A program made the translations under genes and the position numbers. A stretch of DNA of 8,901 bases from Clostridia bacterium (GTDB lineage: Bacteria; Bacillota_E; RBS10-35; JAJYVN01): contig DAHWHT010000113.1 of assembly GCA_027335515.1 (NCBI GenBank), positions 1 to 8,901 on the forward strand, written 5' to 3'. Below, piece by piece: positions 285 through 7,113 of this stretch (the first letter of the stretch is position 1; each line of letters opens with the position of its first letter). The notes beneath the pieces were generated by a model. It worked only from the letters and a program-made list of their open reading frames with translations, ran no database searches and had not been told where the DNA came from.

Positions 285-590
285 GATGGAGGCAACCGGG
301 ATGCGGTGCTTGGCGGCGTCGAGTGGGTCACGGCCGCCGGAGTGACGCTGCAGGGCACCGGCGCGACCGGCATGGTGGTGGCGGGCGCCTGCCCGAATGG
401 AGACGCGGTCCGTTTCGCCAATGTGGCATACGGCCGCGTGCGAGACCTGAGCCTTATGGCGGCCGCCAAACGCAGCGGGGGCCGGGTTGGCTGTCGCCGG
501 CCTTGGGCTGCCGCGCGCCCGCATACCCATGGAAGCGGTCGCCAGGTGGCGGCTGAAGCATCCGCCGCTTGGACCGAAGCGACCGTCGCC
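285..590 (+). pseudogene. Possible decayed beta-helix (pectate-lyase-3-like) fragment
   Basis: No intact gene is visible here, but a short stretch reads like a right-handed parallel beta-helix repeat. In the frame that starts codons at position 321, the segment to about 464 contains GVTLQGTGATGMVV followed by DAVRFANVAYGRVRDLSL. This fits the 'GVtLrGtG ... daVrf.n....rvrdLsi' pattern of pectate_lyase_3 or phage tail-spike repeats. If one G is removed from the five-G run at 477-481, the reading continues as SGAGLAVAGLG in the next frame, again beta-helix-like, to roughly 590. The upstream and downstream translations are Arg/Pro/Gly-rich and unconvincing. I infer a pseudogene remnant, or a gene carrying a one-base error in the G run. 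The boundaries are approximate, and chance resemblance is a real alternative. Confidence 0.3.
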
Positions 591-738
591 GAACGGGCCT
601 TGGCGTGCCCTTGCGCTCTGCGCTACGGTCAGCGATGCTGCGGCGTCTGCGCAGTCAGCGGTATGGTGGTTGGGGCGGCCCGGAGGGCGCCCCCGTCCCG
701 TTCGGGCGCGCGACTCCCACGGGACGGGGGGGCGAGGC

Positions 739-1065
739 GTGGCGGTGCGATGGCGATTCATCCTTCTGGCGCGGGATACCGATACGGGACACACGCGCCG
801 TTGGCTCGATTACACGCCGGGTAACACCGTGGTGCCGCCGCGGGGCGGGTTGAGCCTCGCTTACGCCGTCTTCCTGGCCAACGAGTGGATCACCGCGCTG
901 AACGGAGAACTGCCAAGGAACGACCCCATCGTCGGGGCTGCGTTGCCGTATCTGGGCATCTGCCGCTACTGCGGCCGGGTCGTCGACGACCAGCACCTCT
1001 TGGGCGGAGAGCGGGATGTCTGCGATGGCTGCTGGACGGCCCCCCCGCCCACAGGCGGGGGGTAG
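739..1065 (+). CDS. Small hypothetical protein with C-terminal CxxC...CxxC zinc knuckle
   Basis: I do not recognise this 108-residue protein as a named family. The N-terminal half (about residues 5-70) has a plausible globular composition, with segments such as RWRFILLARDTDTG and LSLAYAVFLANEWITALNG. The C-terminal third has two CxxC pairs (C75/C78 and C95/C98, 16 residues apart), typical of a structural zinc ribbon. The start is the GTG at 739, preceded by a G-rich stretch (G7 at 726-732, then CGAGGC) that can serve as ribosome binding site; a GTG at 745 is an alternative. The open frame extends upstream to about 487, but that part looks non-coding. The last codons and the stop overlap a perfect GC hairpin. 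The next gene is convergent. The layout of a GTG start after a G run and a C-terminal zinc ribbon resembles the AbrB-like gene at 2962, but no AbrB-type N-terminus is visible. Confidence 0.5.
   Translation: MAVRWRFILLARDTDTGHTRRWLDYTPGNTVVPPRGGLSLAYAVFLANEWITALNGELPRNDPIVGAALPYLGICRYCGRVVDDQHLLGGERDVCDGCWTAPPPTGGG
1041..1062. terminator. Perfect 9-bp GC hairpin between convergent genes
   Basis: CCCCCCGCC (1041-1049) and GGCGGGGGG (1054-1062) form a perfect 9-bp stem with a CACA loop. The stop codon TAG (1063-1065) of the upstream plus-strand gene abuts the stem, so the hairpin encodes that protein's last residues. The minus-strand isomerase gene ends at 1119, so the structure could serve both convergent transcripts. 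There is no T tract on either side, so intrinsic termination is only inferred from position and stem strength. Confidence 0.4.
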
Positions 1066-2765: not shown

Positions 2766-2937
2766 CCGCAGTGTGGCACGGGATCTCGCCCGATCGGGCA
2801 GGTCGGTCCGTCCCAGGGTCCAGGGGCCGAACCGAGGGATCGGGGCAGCCACCGCCGCACCTTGGTGAGCCTGCGGCGCCGGGTCGGTGGGGCCGCTGTG
2901 GGGATGCCGCCGCGCCGGTCGGTGTGCGCCGCCGGAC

Positions 2938-2954
2938 GGGGGCGGGGGGGGGGG
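2938..2954 (+). repeat. G5-C-G11 tract directly upstream of a GTG start
   Basis: Five Gs (2938-2942), one C, then eleven Gs (2944-2954) precede the GTG at 2962 by seven bases. The tract may supply the ribosome binding site, could form a G-quadruplex, and is long enough to be slippage-prone. If translation instead starts at the upstream ATG at 2887, the run would be coding and length changes would shift the frame. Confidence 0.7.
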
Positions 2955-2961
2955 TGGCGGC

Positions 2962-3228
2962 GTGGCGCCGCTTTCCAGGAACATCGTTCGGAGACTGGAC
3001 CACCTGGGACGGCTGGTGGTGCCGCCCGGTGTGCGCGATGCGCTGCGGCGCGGACTGCAGCCGGCGGTCACCCCCCTGGCCGCCGACGGCCCCCGCCCGG
3101 AAGCGGTTGAGCCGCTGCGCTGCGCCTTTTGTGGTACGGCGATCCACGTGATTCCCTTTCACCGCAAGGGCATCTGTGTCGAGTGTGTGCGGGAGGTCGC
3201 CGCGATGGTCAGCCCGTCCCCGCGCTGA
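2962..3228 (+). CDS. AbrB/SpoVT-like transition-state regulator with zinc ribbon
   Basis: This 88-residue protein begins like an AbrB-family DNA-binding protein: NIVRRLDHLGRLVVPPGVRDAL (residues 7-28, one residue group split here) follows the family's 'IVRKvDeLGRivIPkeiR' swapped-hairpin pattern. The C-terminal part has a zinc ribbon with CAFC (C54/C57) and CVEC (C72/C75), a tail seen in some Bacillota AbrB proteins. Residues 31-50, which should hold the second hairpin (normally 'lGi.eGD.vei..dgd.iil'), are poorly conserved here, so dimerisation or DNA binding may be altered. GTG at 2962 was chosen because family members begin a few residues before this motif; the open frame runs back to an ATG at 2887 through poly-glycine. 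It stands alone, about 200 bases after a possible promoter island. Its targets are unknown. Confidence 0.7.
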   Translation: MAPLSRNIVRRLDHLGRLVVPPGVRDALRRGLQPAVTPLAADGPRPEAVEPLRCAFCGTAIHVIPFHRKGICVECVREVAAMVSPSPR

Positions 3229-3666: not shown

Positions 3667-3672
3667 AGGAGG
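3667..3672 (+). promoter_or_regulatory. Ribosome binding site AGGAGG deciding the GTG start
   Basis: A full consensus AGGAGG lies 11 bases before the GTG at 3684 and leads directly into the PAS-like sequence. It supports this start over the further-upstream open frame. Confidence 0.65.
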
Positions 3673-3683
3673 AGCGGGGTGCC

Positions 3684-5372
3684 GTGCTTTCCGGCGATAC
3701 CATTGCGCGGGTGGCCTACCGCAACGTGCCGCTTCCGATGTGTATTCTGGACGATGCCTGTCGGCTGGTGGAACTCAACGCCTGCGCCCTTGACTATTGG
3801 GGGCTGGGGACGGATGCCAGCGGCCTCCAGGCTCCGGAGGCGTTGCGCCTGGTCGGGCCGGATGGCGAGCCGGACGGCCGCGAACGGTTGGCCTTGGCCG
3901 TGCGGACCGGCGGTGCGGTCGGTGCGGCGGTTTGCCACGGCCCGAGGTTGCGCCCGGTGATCCTGGTCGGGGCGCCCGTTTGCGAGGGTGACAGAACGTT
4001 CACCCTGCTCACGGTGCTGGACCGCGATCGGACCGACCCCGCGCCGTACGCGTCACTGCCTGCCTGGACCCGCACCGATGCCCTCACCGGACTGGTCAAC
4101 CGGCGTGGTTGGCACACGGTGGCCGCCGATTGGGACGGTGCGCCCGGGGTTGCGGTTTGTTTGCGCTTGGACCATCTCGAGGCGATCAACGAGCGGCATG
4201 GCCGGGCGGTGGGGGATGCGGTGCTTGCCGCGCTGGCGGATGCGGTGCGGTCGGCGGCGCCGCCCGACGGGCTGGCGTTGCGCGTGGAGGGCAACGTCTT
4301 TGCCCTCTTGCTGCCTCGGACGGACGTGGGCGCCGCCGAGGCGTGGCTGCGCGCCACGGCCGACGCCCTGACGCAAACGACCCCGCAGCTCTCCGCGCCG
4401 CCGCGCCTTTGCCATGGCGTCGCCACGTGGCAGCCGGGCGGGCTGGATGCGGCCCTGCAGAATGCGGCTGCCGGCCTGCAGGCAAGCCTCAGTGTGGCCC
4501 TGACGGCCTCAAGCGGTGGCCGCATCCTGCTGACCGGTACCGCCAGCCCTGCGCCCGCCCCACCATCCCTGCCCATCGCCCTTGCCGACCCGGGCGGCAA
4601 CCTTGCCGGTCTGTACATCCAATGGCACGAGCAGGCCGACCAGTTCGTAACCTTCGCGGATCCGCCGTGCGGTGGGGCGGTCGTGGAGGTGGGGGCAGGC
4701 GCGGGGCGGATTACCTTCGACGGGCAGTTGGCGCAACGGGTGGGACCGGCCGGCGCCCTGCTGGTGACGGACACCGACCCGCGACGCCTGGAGCGGGCGC
4801 GGTCCCGGGCGACCGGCATGGCATGGCTGCACTTTCTTCGGGCTTCGGCCGAGTCTCTGCCTCTGGCCTCCGGCACGGTGGACATGGCGGTGGGCGCGTT
4901 GTTTCTCCACCTGTGCGACGGGCCGCGGGCCATTCGCGAGATGGCTCGGATCCTGCGGCCCGGCGGTCGGCTCGCCATCGCCGCCGCCCTTGAGTTTCCC
5001 TGGTCGCCGTTTTGGACGGAGGTCCTGGAGCCCATTCGGCTCGCACACGCCGCGGTCGGCCGGGCACTCCCGCAGCCGCTGCTGGCGTTCGGCGAGTTGG
5101 AGGGCATGCTGCAGTCTGCGGGCCTGGTGCTCGAACGGGCCGAGGTCAGCGCGCCGCAGCAGATCAGCGTCGGCGACGCACCCACGGCCCTTGCCGTTTG
5201 GCGGCGCCTTGCCATCCCAAAGTTGCTGCTGGCCGGTTTGGATCCGGCGGGGTGGGCCGGGCATCTCGCCAAGTGCGAGGCGCGGATTGTCTCGGATTTC
5301 GATCGGGTCAGTGCGCGGCTGCGCGCCCTGGAGTGGCGCTGCCTCAGTGTGGTGGCCCGCCGGCCCGTCTGA
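3684..5372 (+). CDS. PAS-like / degenerate GGDEF / SAM-dependent methyltransferase fusion protein
   Basis: This 562-residue protein has three regions. Residues 8-115 are PAS-like (NVPLPMCILDDACRLVELN). Residues 131-255 form a GGDEF fold: it begins with the canonical DALTGLVNRRGW, and continues with LDHLEAINERHG and VGDAVL, but the GGDEF signature reads EGNVF and the first metal-binding Asp of the 'DlDhFK' motif is Arg (LRLDHLEAIN). The Arg of the RxxD inhibitory site is also missing (APPD). It therefore cannot be expected to make c-di-GMP. Residues 325-455 are a class I methyltransferase of the Methyltransf_11/UbiE type, with motif I EVGAGAGRI (335-343), an acidic loop at TDTDPRR (362-368), ASAESLPL, and LRPGGRLAIA (424-433). 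No membrane segment is seen. GTG at 3684 was chosen because AGGAGG lies 11 bases upstream at 3667-3672; the frame is open further back. The substrate is unknown. An HTH gene follows after 117 bases. Confidence 0.8.
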   Translation: MLSGDTIARVAYRNVPLPMCILDDACRLVELNACALDYWGLGTDASGLQAPEALRLVGPDGEPDGRERLALAVRTGGAVGAAVCHGPRLRPVILVGAPVCEGDRTFTLLTVLDRDRTDPAPYASLPAWTRTDALTGLVNRRGWHTVAADWDGAPGVAVCLRLDHLEAINERHGRAVGDAVLAALADAVRSAAPPDGLALRVEGNVFALLLPRTDVGAAEAWLRATADALTQTTPQLSAPPRLCHGVATWQPGGLDAALQNAAAGLQASLSVALTASSGGRILLTGTASPAPAPPSLPIALADPGGNLAGLYIQWHEQADQFVTFADPPCGGAVVEVGAGAGRITFDGQLAQRVGPAGALLVTDTDPRRLERARSRATGMAWLHFLRASAESLPLASGTVDMAVGALFLHLCDGPRAIREMARILRPGGRLAIAAALEFPWSPFWTEVLEPIRLAHAAVGRALPQPLLAFGELEGMLQSAGLVLERAEVSAPQQISVGDAPTALAVWRRLAIPKLLLAGLDPAGWAGHLAKCEARIVSDFDRVSARLRALEWRCLSVVARRPV

Positions 5373-6090: not shown

Positions 6091-7113
6091 TCAGGCCGGA
6101 TGCCGGTCGCCCAGCCAGTGCGCCAGCCACGCCAGGGCTTCGTTCCACATCGCTCCGGTCCAGGAGTGGCCGACGCCCGCATACAGCCGTCCCCGGTAGC
6201 GGTCTGCGGCGGCGTGCACGGCCCAGAGCGCCCCGCACCAGTCCTGAATGGTGCGCACACCGTCGGCGGGGGCGCCGCGATCCTGGTCCCCGGAGAGGGT
6301 GAGCAGGGGCCGGGGCGCGATCAGGCCCACGATCGCCTCCGTGTCGAAGTGGCGCAACAATCCTGGGACGAAGTAGTAGATGCCGTGGGCGTCCAGGGCG
6401 CCGCTGGCGATCAGGTTCTGGTAGCGCGTCAGGCAGGCGATGCAGACCGCGGCGGCGACGCGGTCGTCCAGCGCGGCGGCCCACCACGCCCGGGTGCACC
6501 CCATGCTCATGCCCATGATGCCGACGCGGGAGGGATCGACCTCCGGCAGACTGCGCGCCACCTGCAGCCCCAGGAGGTCGTCCCGCACCATCAGGCCAAA
6601 GAGGGTACGGCCGAGCCACAGTTGCCGCTTGAACTCGGAGGCCTCTTCGTCCACGCCGCGTTGGTTTGGGCCGCCGGGTCCACGGCCCTGACGTTCACCG
6701 AAGCACCAGCTGTCCGCGGCGAGCACCGCGTAGCCGGCGCGCACGAGCAGTTCGGCCTTCGTCGGTCCAAGCGCGCTGGCTTCAAACAACTCGTCCTTGC
6801 CCAATGCGTAGCGACCGCCGTGGGCGTGGCAGAAGTAGACCGCCGGCAGAGGTCGGTCCCGGCGCGCCGGCAGCAGCAGGTAGGCGGGGACGGTCTGGCC
6901 CATGCCGTTGTCCCAGGAAAGGCGCAGGACCGTGGTTTCCGGCAGCCGCAGGTCCGTCGCCGGTTGGCGGTCGATCGTGGCGGGCGGCAGCGGGTCCCAC
7001 GGCCCGAGCGCCTCGTGGATGCAGCGACGGATGTGCGGGCGCTGGGCCTCCCATGCGGCGCGGGTCGGGGGAGGGGCCGCCGTGGGGGTGATGCGCCAGC
7101 CGGCGGTCGACAT
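6091..7113 (-). CDS. Alpha/beta hydrolase (dienelactone hydrolase / acetyl esterase type)
   Basis: This 340-residue soluble alpha/beta hydrolase probably acts on an ester. CHAHGG (95-100) is the oxyanion-hole loop, GMSMG (201-205) holds the nucleophile S203, GDQD (275-278) offers the acid (D276 or D278), and GVGHSWT (313-319) holds H316, so the catalytic triad looks complete. ADSWCFGERQGRG (133-145) is typical of the Abhydrolase_7/acetyl-xylan-esterase-like group. No signal peptide is seen, so it is likely cytoplasmic. The ATG at 7111-7113 is supported by a GAGGGAGG Shine-Dalgarno (plus-strand 7124-7131) ten bases upstream of it. It is convergent with the HTH gene and divergent from the 63-residue gene. 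The natural substrate cannot be told; sugar esters would be compatible with the sugar isomerase in the window, but that is speculation. Confidence 0.85.
   Translation of the reverse strand: MSTAGWRITPTAAPPPTRAAWEAQRPHIRRCIHEALGPWDPLPPATIDRQPATDLRLPETTVLRLSWDNGMGQTVPAYLLLPARRDRPLPAVYFCHAHGGRYALGKDELFEASALGPTKAELLVRAGYAVLAADSWCFGERQGRGPGGPNQRGVDEEASEFKRQLWLGRTLFGLMVRDDLLGLQVARSLPEVDPSRVGIMGMSMGCTRAWWAAALDDRVAAAVCIACLTRYQNLIASGALDAHGIYYFVPGLLRHFDTEAIVGLIAPRPLLTLSGDQDRGAPADGVRTIQDWCGALWAVHAAADRYRGRLYAGVGHSWTGAMWNEALAWLAHWLGDRHPA

Follow-up and report, generated by a model that had tools for sequence, protein, structure and literature searches.

GGDEF domains usually stand at the end of a protein or have EAL, HD-GYP or sensor domains as partners. 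The Bacillota protein GdpP/YybT, with its PAS, degenerate GGDEF and DHH/DHHA1 architecture, places a PAS and a degenerate GGDEF domain upstream of an enzyme domain, as does the protein described here, which is encoded in a window of 8,901 nucleotides (the whole stretch of DNA that was analysed). The enzyme of GdpP/YybT is, however, a c-di-AMP phosphodiesterase, whereas DHH/DHHA1 was absent among the nine Pfam families matching the window protein at E<=1. In PA0861 of Pseudomonas aeruginosa (PDB 5xgb), the best PDB sequence match to our four-sequence profile A1, PAS and then GGDEF follow in the same order as in the window protein, but the output of PA0861-type PAS-GGDEF-EAL proteins is an EAL domain, whereas the window protein has a methyltransferase and has lost the GGDEF signature. 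Its C-terminal domain shares fold and SAM motifs with class I methyltransferases of the UbiE/Coq5, RebM and TleD types, which are free-standing enzymes. A further methyltransferase relevant to this comparison is RlmI, the chain of which is not known to contain a GGDEF domain.

Like the window protein, FimX combines a degenerate GGDEF with an attached output domain, which in FimX is an EAL domain controlled by it; GTP is reported to raise the phosphodiesterase activity of FimX only if the degenerate GGDEF motif GDSIF is intact (PMC8846402). FimX is the nearest precedent for a GTP-sensing degenerate GGDEF domain with control over an attached domain; GTP sensing by the window protein is putative. 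RlmI is reported to be an rRNA methyltransferase that is inhibited by c-di-GMP, with c-di-GMP binding to RlmI itself (PMC11894153); this is a methyltransferase answering to c-di-GMP, but it is an rRNA enzyme, whereas the window methyltransferase is probably a small-molecule one. The architecture reported here was not described among the matches listed in a full-text literature search, and may stand unremarked in supplementary tables.

Domain organisation of the fusion protein

The open reading frame at 3684-5372 on the forward strand encodes a single chain of 562 residues comprising a PAS-like region, a degenerate GGDEF domain and a class I SAM methyltransferase. The single ORF, the domain matches and the fold matches together confirm the claim of the first-pass annotation that the three lie in one polypeptide. 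P0002, a public protein of identical start and length, departs from it at one residue. The following features were identified:

3667..3672, + strand, likely ribosome-binding site AGGAGG, 11 bases 5' of the GTG, predicted from the sequence
3684..5372, + strand, PAS/pseudo-GGDEF/methyltransferase gene, GTG start, one frame, 562 aa
3714..4022, + strand, PAS-like domain, residues ~11-113 (weak PAS_8 match, AF2 segment, Foldseek)
4059..4538, + strand, degenerate GGDEF domain, residues ~126-285
4164..4166, + strand, Arg161 codon at the position of the first metal-binding Asp of diguanylate cyclases (alignment, SadC)
4287..4301, + strand, EGNVF replacing GG(D/E)EF, residues 202-206 (sequence and family alignment)
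4539..4604, + strand, low-confidence linker, residues ~286-307 (AF2 pLDDT <50 at 287-304)
4605..5369, + strand, class I SAM methyltransferase domain, residues 308-562
4680..4718, + strand, SAM-binding motif I VVEVGAGAGRITF, residues 333-345, intact

The PAS_8 profile matched the window protein at 16.6 bits, below the Pfam cut-off of 21.8; it matched 24 of 34 family members at E<=0.01, and a PAS cut-off was exceeded in three relatives (L093, L110 and L119). AF2 models the PAS-like region as a folded alpha/beta segment, and Foldseek placed the PAS-GGDEF-EAL structures 5xgb and 5xge at ranks 2 and 3. The list from the PDB aligner consists of methyltransferase and GGDEF chains and bears little on the PAS part, for which nothing was concluded from it. 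The central domain scored above the curated cut-off for GGDEF (PF00990) and showed the GGDEF fold, so that the outcome named beforehand as fatal to the proposal, a failure of domain searches to find such a fold, did not materialise. The C-terminal domain likewise scored above its profile cut-off, and presented the class I fold, a motif I of the form (E/D)xGxGxG and an intact acidic residue after strand 2 (Asp363), supporting the earlier description of a complete class I SAM methyltransferase. Unlike UbiE, MenG and ArsM, the window protein falls far below the curated cut-off for each: UbiE/MenG models gave 34.8 bits against 158.35 (TIGR01934) and 38.2 against 378 (PRK00216.1-1), and the ArsM model 46.1 against 263 (PRK11873.1). 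The pTM of the AF2 model is 0.60, so the arrangement of the domains is uncertain, which counts against the reading that we favour below.

Distribution of the fusion

A protein search identified at least four full-length members: that of the window itself, and others at 65, 35 and 36% identity; since it scored some 8000 candidates sharing most words, it is no measure of rarity, and whole genomes hold many more members. The 65% orthologue, P0003, maps to locus L001 of a Bacillota MAG (isolate TL1-3.bin6), the genome of which has five full-length paralogues. Among 398 sampled genomes of the phylum, a match at E<=1e-40 came from this genome alone, with no more than three candidates scored in each genome listed. 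Within one Bacillota class, 30 of 154 genomes matched at E<=1e-30, some through one half only, and 38 relatives were one-frame, full-length fusions, distributed over 18 of the 154 genomes. A fusion was counted where the profile match of an ORF started by position 20 and ran past position 450; two of those counted (L053/L089 and L025/L114) run off the contig end at the N-terminus. These one-frame copies dispose of the alternative that separate genes had been joined here by a frame error.

In the order, 9 of 13 genomes matched, and full-length fusions were there confined to a single family, where all six genomes carried them. The numbers of fusions and of GGDEF matches per genome were 5 and 10 in G001, 9 and 15 in G465, 4 and 9 in G463, 2 and 8 in G462, 2 and 3 in G461, and 1 and 4 in G464; nearly half of the GGDEF matches in this bacterial family (23 of 49) hence sit inside full-length methyltransferase fusions. 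The nine copies in G465, the maximum for any genome, are 37-71% identical to one another. EAL and PilZ matches were present in all six genomes, making a c-di-GMP pathway likely there. Single halves occur in the same genomes, as methyltransferases without GGDEF (L072, L077), a PAS-GGDEF protein ending at profile position 346 (L116) and pieces at contig ends; L072, L077 and L116 indicate that the fusion is not obligatory, a second point against our favoured reading. In genome G476, a frame break within the GGDEF region divides the fusion gene (L080:6669-8467, - strand) between two ORFs that overlap. The genomes G001 and G461-G465 each contain 16 to 78 sulfatases, together with solute-binding proteins that by eye are of the carbohydrate type, which suggests a glycan-degrading lineage.

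Degeneration of the GGDEF domain

Conservation of key residues was assessed in an alignment of 41 full-length members, comprising the window protein, P0004, P0005, 35 ORFs (with L001 standing for P0003), L110, L119 and L120, and leaving out the frame-split L080 and partial pieces; 38 of the 41 come from 18 genomes. Both the GG(D/E)EF signature and the first metal Asp are kept in 37 of them, among which are all four further copies from the genome of the orthologue. The fusion is hence not built around a dead GGDEF domain, and to this extent the interpretation given in the first-pass annotation is not supported as it stood. The four exceptions are the window protein and L001, which share EGNVF, L057 (GDDEL) and L040 (GADEL). 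At the first metal position the window has Arg161 and L001 has His, with Asp in the other 39, L057 and L040 included. The signature seen in the window thus recurs in a 65%-identical orthologue, but the accompanying Arg does not, and EGNVF is common to the window and this one orthologue only, which again weighs against the favoured reading.

Relative to the family consensus, the window protein presents the substitutions D161R, K166E, G202E, D204N, E205V, Y266Q and K269L (position 269 is Gln in the orthologue), whereas N169, D178 and R200 are invariant in all 41 members. Direct alignment to SadC (...IDLDHF...) supports the GGDEF positions. The roles assigned to these residues, with position 161 as the metal Asp and others as metal, catalytic or phosphate positions, are assumed from published cyclase work; Asn169 and Asp178 presumably make the guanine-base contacts in active relatives, and we take Lys269 to be the residue thought to contact the triphosphate. 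The window GGDEF domain, degenerate in both its EGNVF signature and its Arg at the first metal position, lacks the marks of an active diguanylate cyclase and is predicted from its residues to be one that should not make c-di-GMP; with metal-binding and catalytic residues lost, no such synthesis is expected from the window protein or its orthologue. Loss of Lys269 would weaken GTP binding, which argues against simple GTP sensing. The inhibitory-site Arg, whose loss had also been remarked upon, is indeed absent here, but this is no mark of the window copy, given that an RxxD five residues upstream of the signature was found in only 2 of the 41 members (L022 and L110).

A canonical methyltransferase motif I is present in 35 of the 41 members, the remainder (P0004, L041 and L023-L026) differing at its first glycine. 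It is intact in L040 and L057, where the GGDEF signature is lost, and no aligned member has both the signature and motif I altered.

Phylogeny and selection

In a tree of 38 rows (without L110, L119 and L120), the window protein and L001 form a pair with 100/100 support on a long stem (1.12 changes per column). L057 and L040 form another (100/100) within a 100/100 clade of eight, the six remaining members of which are intact. With two separate degenerate pairs, at least two losses of the GGDEF signature are most likely, one of them in the L057/L040 lineage. A label test on the tree gave one change for the four degenerate rows, set only against the five labelled diverged-methyltransferase rows, as rows without a label do not count in it; the fork joining the window pair is unresolved, and the branch leading to L022 is long.

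The PAS, GGDEF and methyltransferase domains are all under purifying selection in the window/orthologue pair, in which 370 of 554 aligned residues are identical. By NG86, dN was 0.27 in PAS, 0.29 in GGDEF, 0.17 in the methyltransferase core and 0.19 in its C-terminal part, against dS of 0.81, 0.87, 0.85 and 1.18, respectively; the ratios are rough because dS is close to 1 on short segments. YN00 gave no values for the linker, the C-terminal segment or the full length; elsewhere its dS lay above the NG86 values and dN was still lower than dS. Of the three domains, GGDEF has diverged most (98 of 160 residues identical, against 69 of 105 in PAS and 100 of 133 in the methyltransferase core), but residues 193-211 around EGNVF are identical at 16 of 19 positions. 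Together with dN below dS, this indicates that the degenerate domain has been retained under selection, and rules out a decaying pseudogene.

An ORF encoding an EAL fragment (profile positions 14-80) was observed at L096:441-1784 (+), in another frame, starting upstream of and overlapping the GADEL member of G462. It is possibly the remnant of an EAL-PAS-GGDEF-methyltransferase ancestor.

Proposed function and alternative explanations

We give a probability of about 60% to the interpretation that the window protein is a cis-regulated methyltransferase that would be coupled to a sensor/pseudo-GGDEF control module, and that it belongs to a lineage-specific PAS-GGDEF-UbiE-like family. In the window protein and its orthologue, the GGDEF domain would have lost cyclase activity while keeping its fold and guanine-contacting residues. 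The PAS and pseudo-GGDEF domains could then relay a signal perceived by PAS, and possibly a bound guanine nucleotide, and this module would set the activity of the putative methyl-transferring domain on an acceptor that is probably a small molecule. The gating by a ligand or nucleotide suggested in the first-pass annotation is plausible. With such an ordinary-looking methyltransferase as partner, cis switching of a metabolic methyltransferase by nucleotide signalling becomes directly testable, and the paralogues that nature provides, some intact, some GGDEF-dead and some methyltransferase-diverged, should allow the direction of control to be read.

The degenerate GGDEF domain might instead only serve as a scaffold, structural or for dimerisation, that links PAS to the methyltransferase without a ligand of its own. 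The joint alteration of the metal, catalytic and phosphate-contacting positions (in the roles assumed above) and the lower conservation of this domain are consistent with a scaffold, for which we would allow perhaps a minority chance; the strong conservation of the EGNVF stretch and the presence of the guanine-contacting Asn and Asp in every aligned member speak against it. Across the family, the roles could also be reversed, with the methyltransferase as a sensor of SAM/SAH that tunes a cyclase (or, in some members, an EAL domain) rather than as the output. The persistence of GGDEF and the metal Asp in 37 of 41 members, and the fact that a branch with EAL and GGDEF domains (L111, L112 and L119) combines high EAL and GGDEF scores with a weak methyltransferase, would fit this reversal, but we regard it as improbable: motif I is canonical in most members, it is intact in L040 and L057 despite loss of their signature, and in the window protein a well-kept methyltransferase would have little to tune. 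A chance fusion, a sequencing frame error or a decaying pseudogene is barely credible, considering the one-frame copies in 18 genomes and the purifying selection on all three domains, even if the window DNA is high in GC with many long spurious ORFs and one relative (G476, L080) is frame-split.

Extending beyond the cis-regulated methyltransferase proposed for the window, a tentative joint reading, which we would not expect to hold in full, is that of an expanded bacterial two-enzyme family which couples the c-di-GMP system to SAM-dependent methylation in cis, with control running either way. Most of the members examined would be at once cyclase and methyltransferase; in the window branch and in L040/L057 the GGDEF half might have become a regulator of the methyltransferase; and in the EAL-GGDEF branch a diverged methyltransferase may read SAM/SAH to set c-di-GMP turnover. 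If so, nucleotide second-messenger signalling would have methylation as a partner that is both direct and dedicated.

Related architectures in the class

Elsewhere in the class, the same type of methyltransferase follows other N-termini. In the EAL-GGDEF branch, EAL and then GGDEF precede a weakly scoring methyltransferase, with Methyltransf_11 scores of 22.0 (L112), 36.4 (L111) and 30.9 bits (L119). In another architecture, A4 (13 proteins), the methyltransferase follows an N-terminus that is uncharacterised, largely helical and marked by an invariant HRPW motif, for which Pfam gave no match upstream of the methyltransferase in the five of 13 proteins scanned. An A4-type model reached a pLDDT of 89.8 and a pTM of 0.85; the comparison with the PDB aligner bears little on its N-terminal domain, and nothing was concluded from it. 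A4 proteins were seen at L063, L064, L066-L071, L073-L075 and L078, G483 and G438 each contributing four copies among the loci read, and two copies stand in tandem in L068.

Genomic neighbourhood

To compare gene neighbourhoods, 541 ORFs predicted in 62 sequences were searched all-against-all with BLAST, with gene calls that amount to a rough scan. Besides the family itself, only two clusters of ORFs extended beyond three sequences, one to 12 and the other to 8, and appear by eye to be solute-binding proteins and sulfatases. Enrichment of sulfatases beside fusion genes was not convincing (6 in 24 loci against 3.1 expected from their density in the genomes, in the six family genomes). A mobile-element origin was considered and rejected after plasmid and viral-contig searches gave no full-length match: 17 of 72,556 plasmid records matched in tblastn, all in the methyltransferase part and none covering 80% of the query, and the four-sequence profile A1 matched no viral contig. 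Rfam at gathering thresholds gave no regulatory RNA match in the window.

Three flanking genes are common to the window and L001 and occur in no other sequence of the set. They encode an AP_endonuc_2 protein (76% over 272 residues), a downstream Xre-type HTH protein (67-72%) and a small protein (window 451-1062, +; L001:2685-3617, +; 68% over 108) with a C-terminal CxxC...CxxC that looks zinc-ribbon-like by eye; this small protein has no Pfam match. A small ORF at 2887-3228 (+) in the window, also lacking a Pfam match, shows by eye a CxxC...CxxC pair and an AbrB-like stretch, and the matching interval of L001 contains a peptide similar by eye. An AXE1/dienelactone-hydrolase-like esterase is encoded at 6094-7113 (-) of the window (AXE1, 36.5 bits, cut-off 21). 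The Xre-type HTH gene directly follows the methyltransferase gene in the window; in L001, an IS200-like transposase (Y1_Tnp, PF01797, 128 bits; L001:8069-9304, -) lies between the two, next to an ORF without a Pfam match that is TnpB-like by eye.
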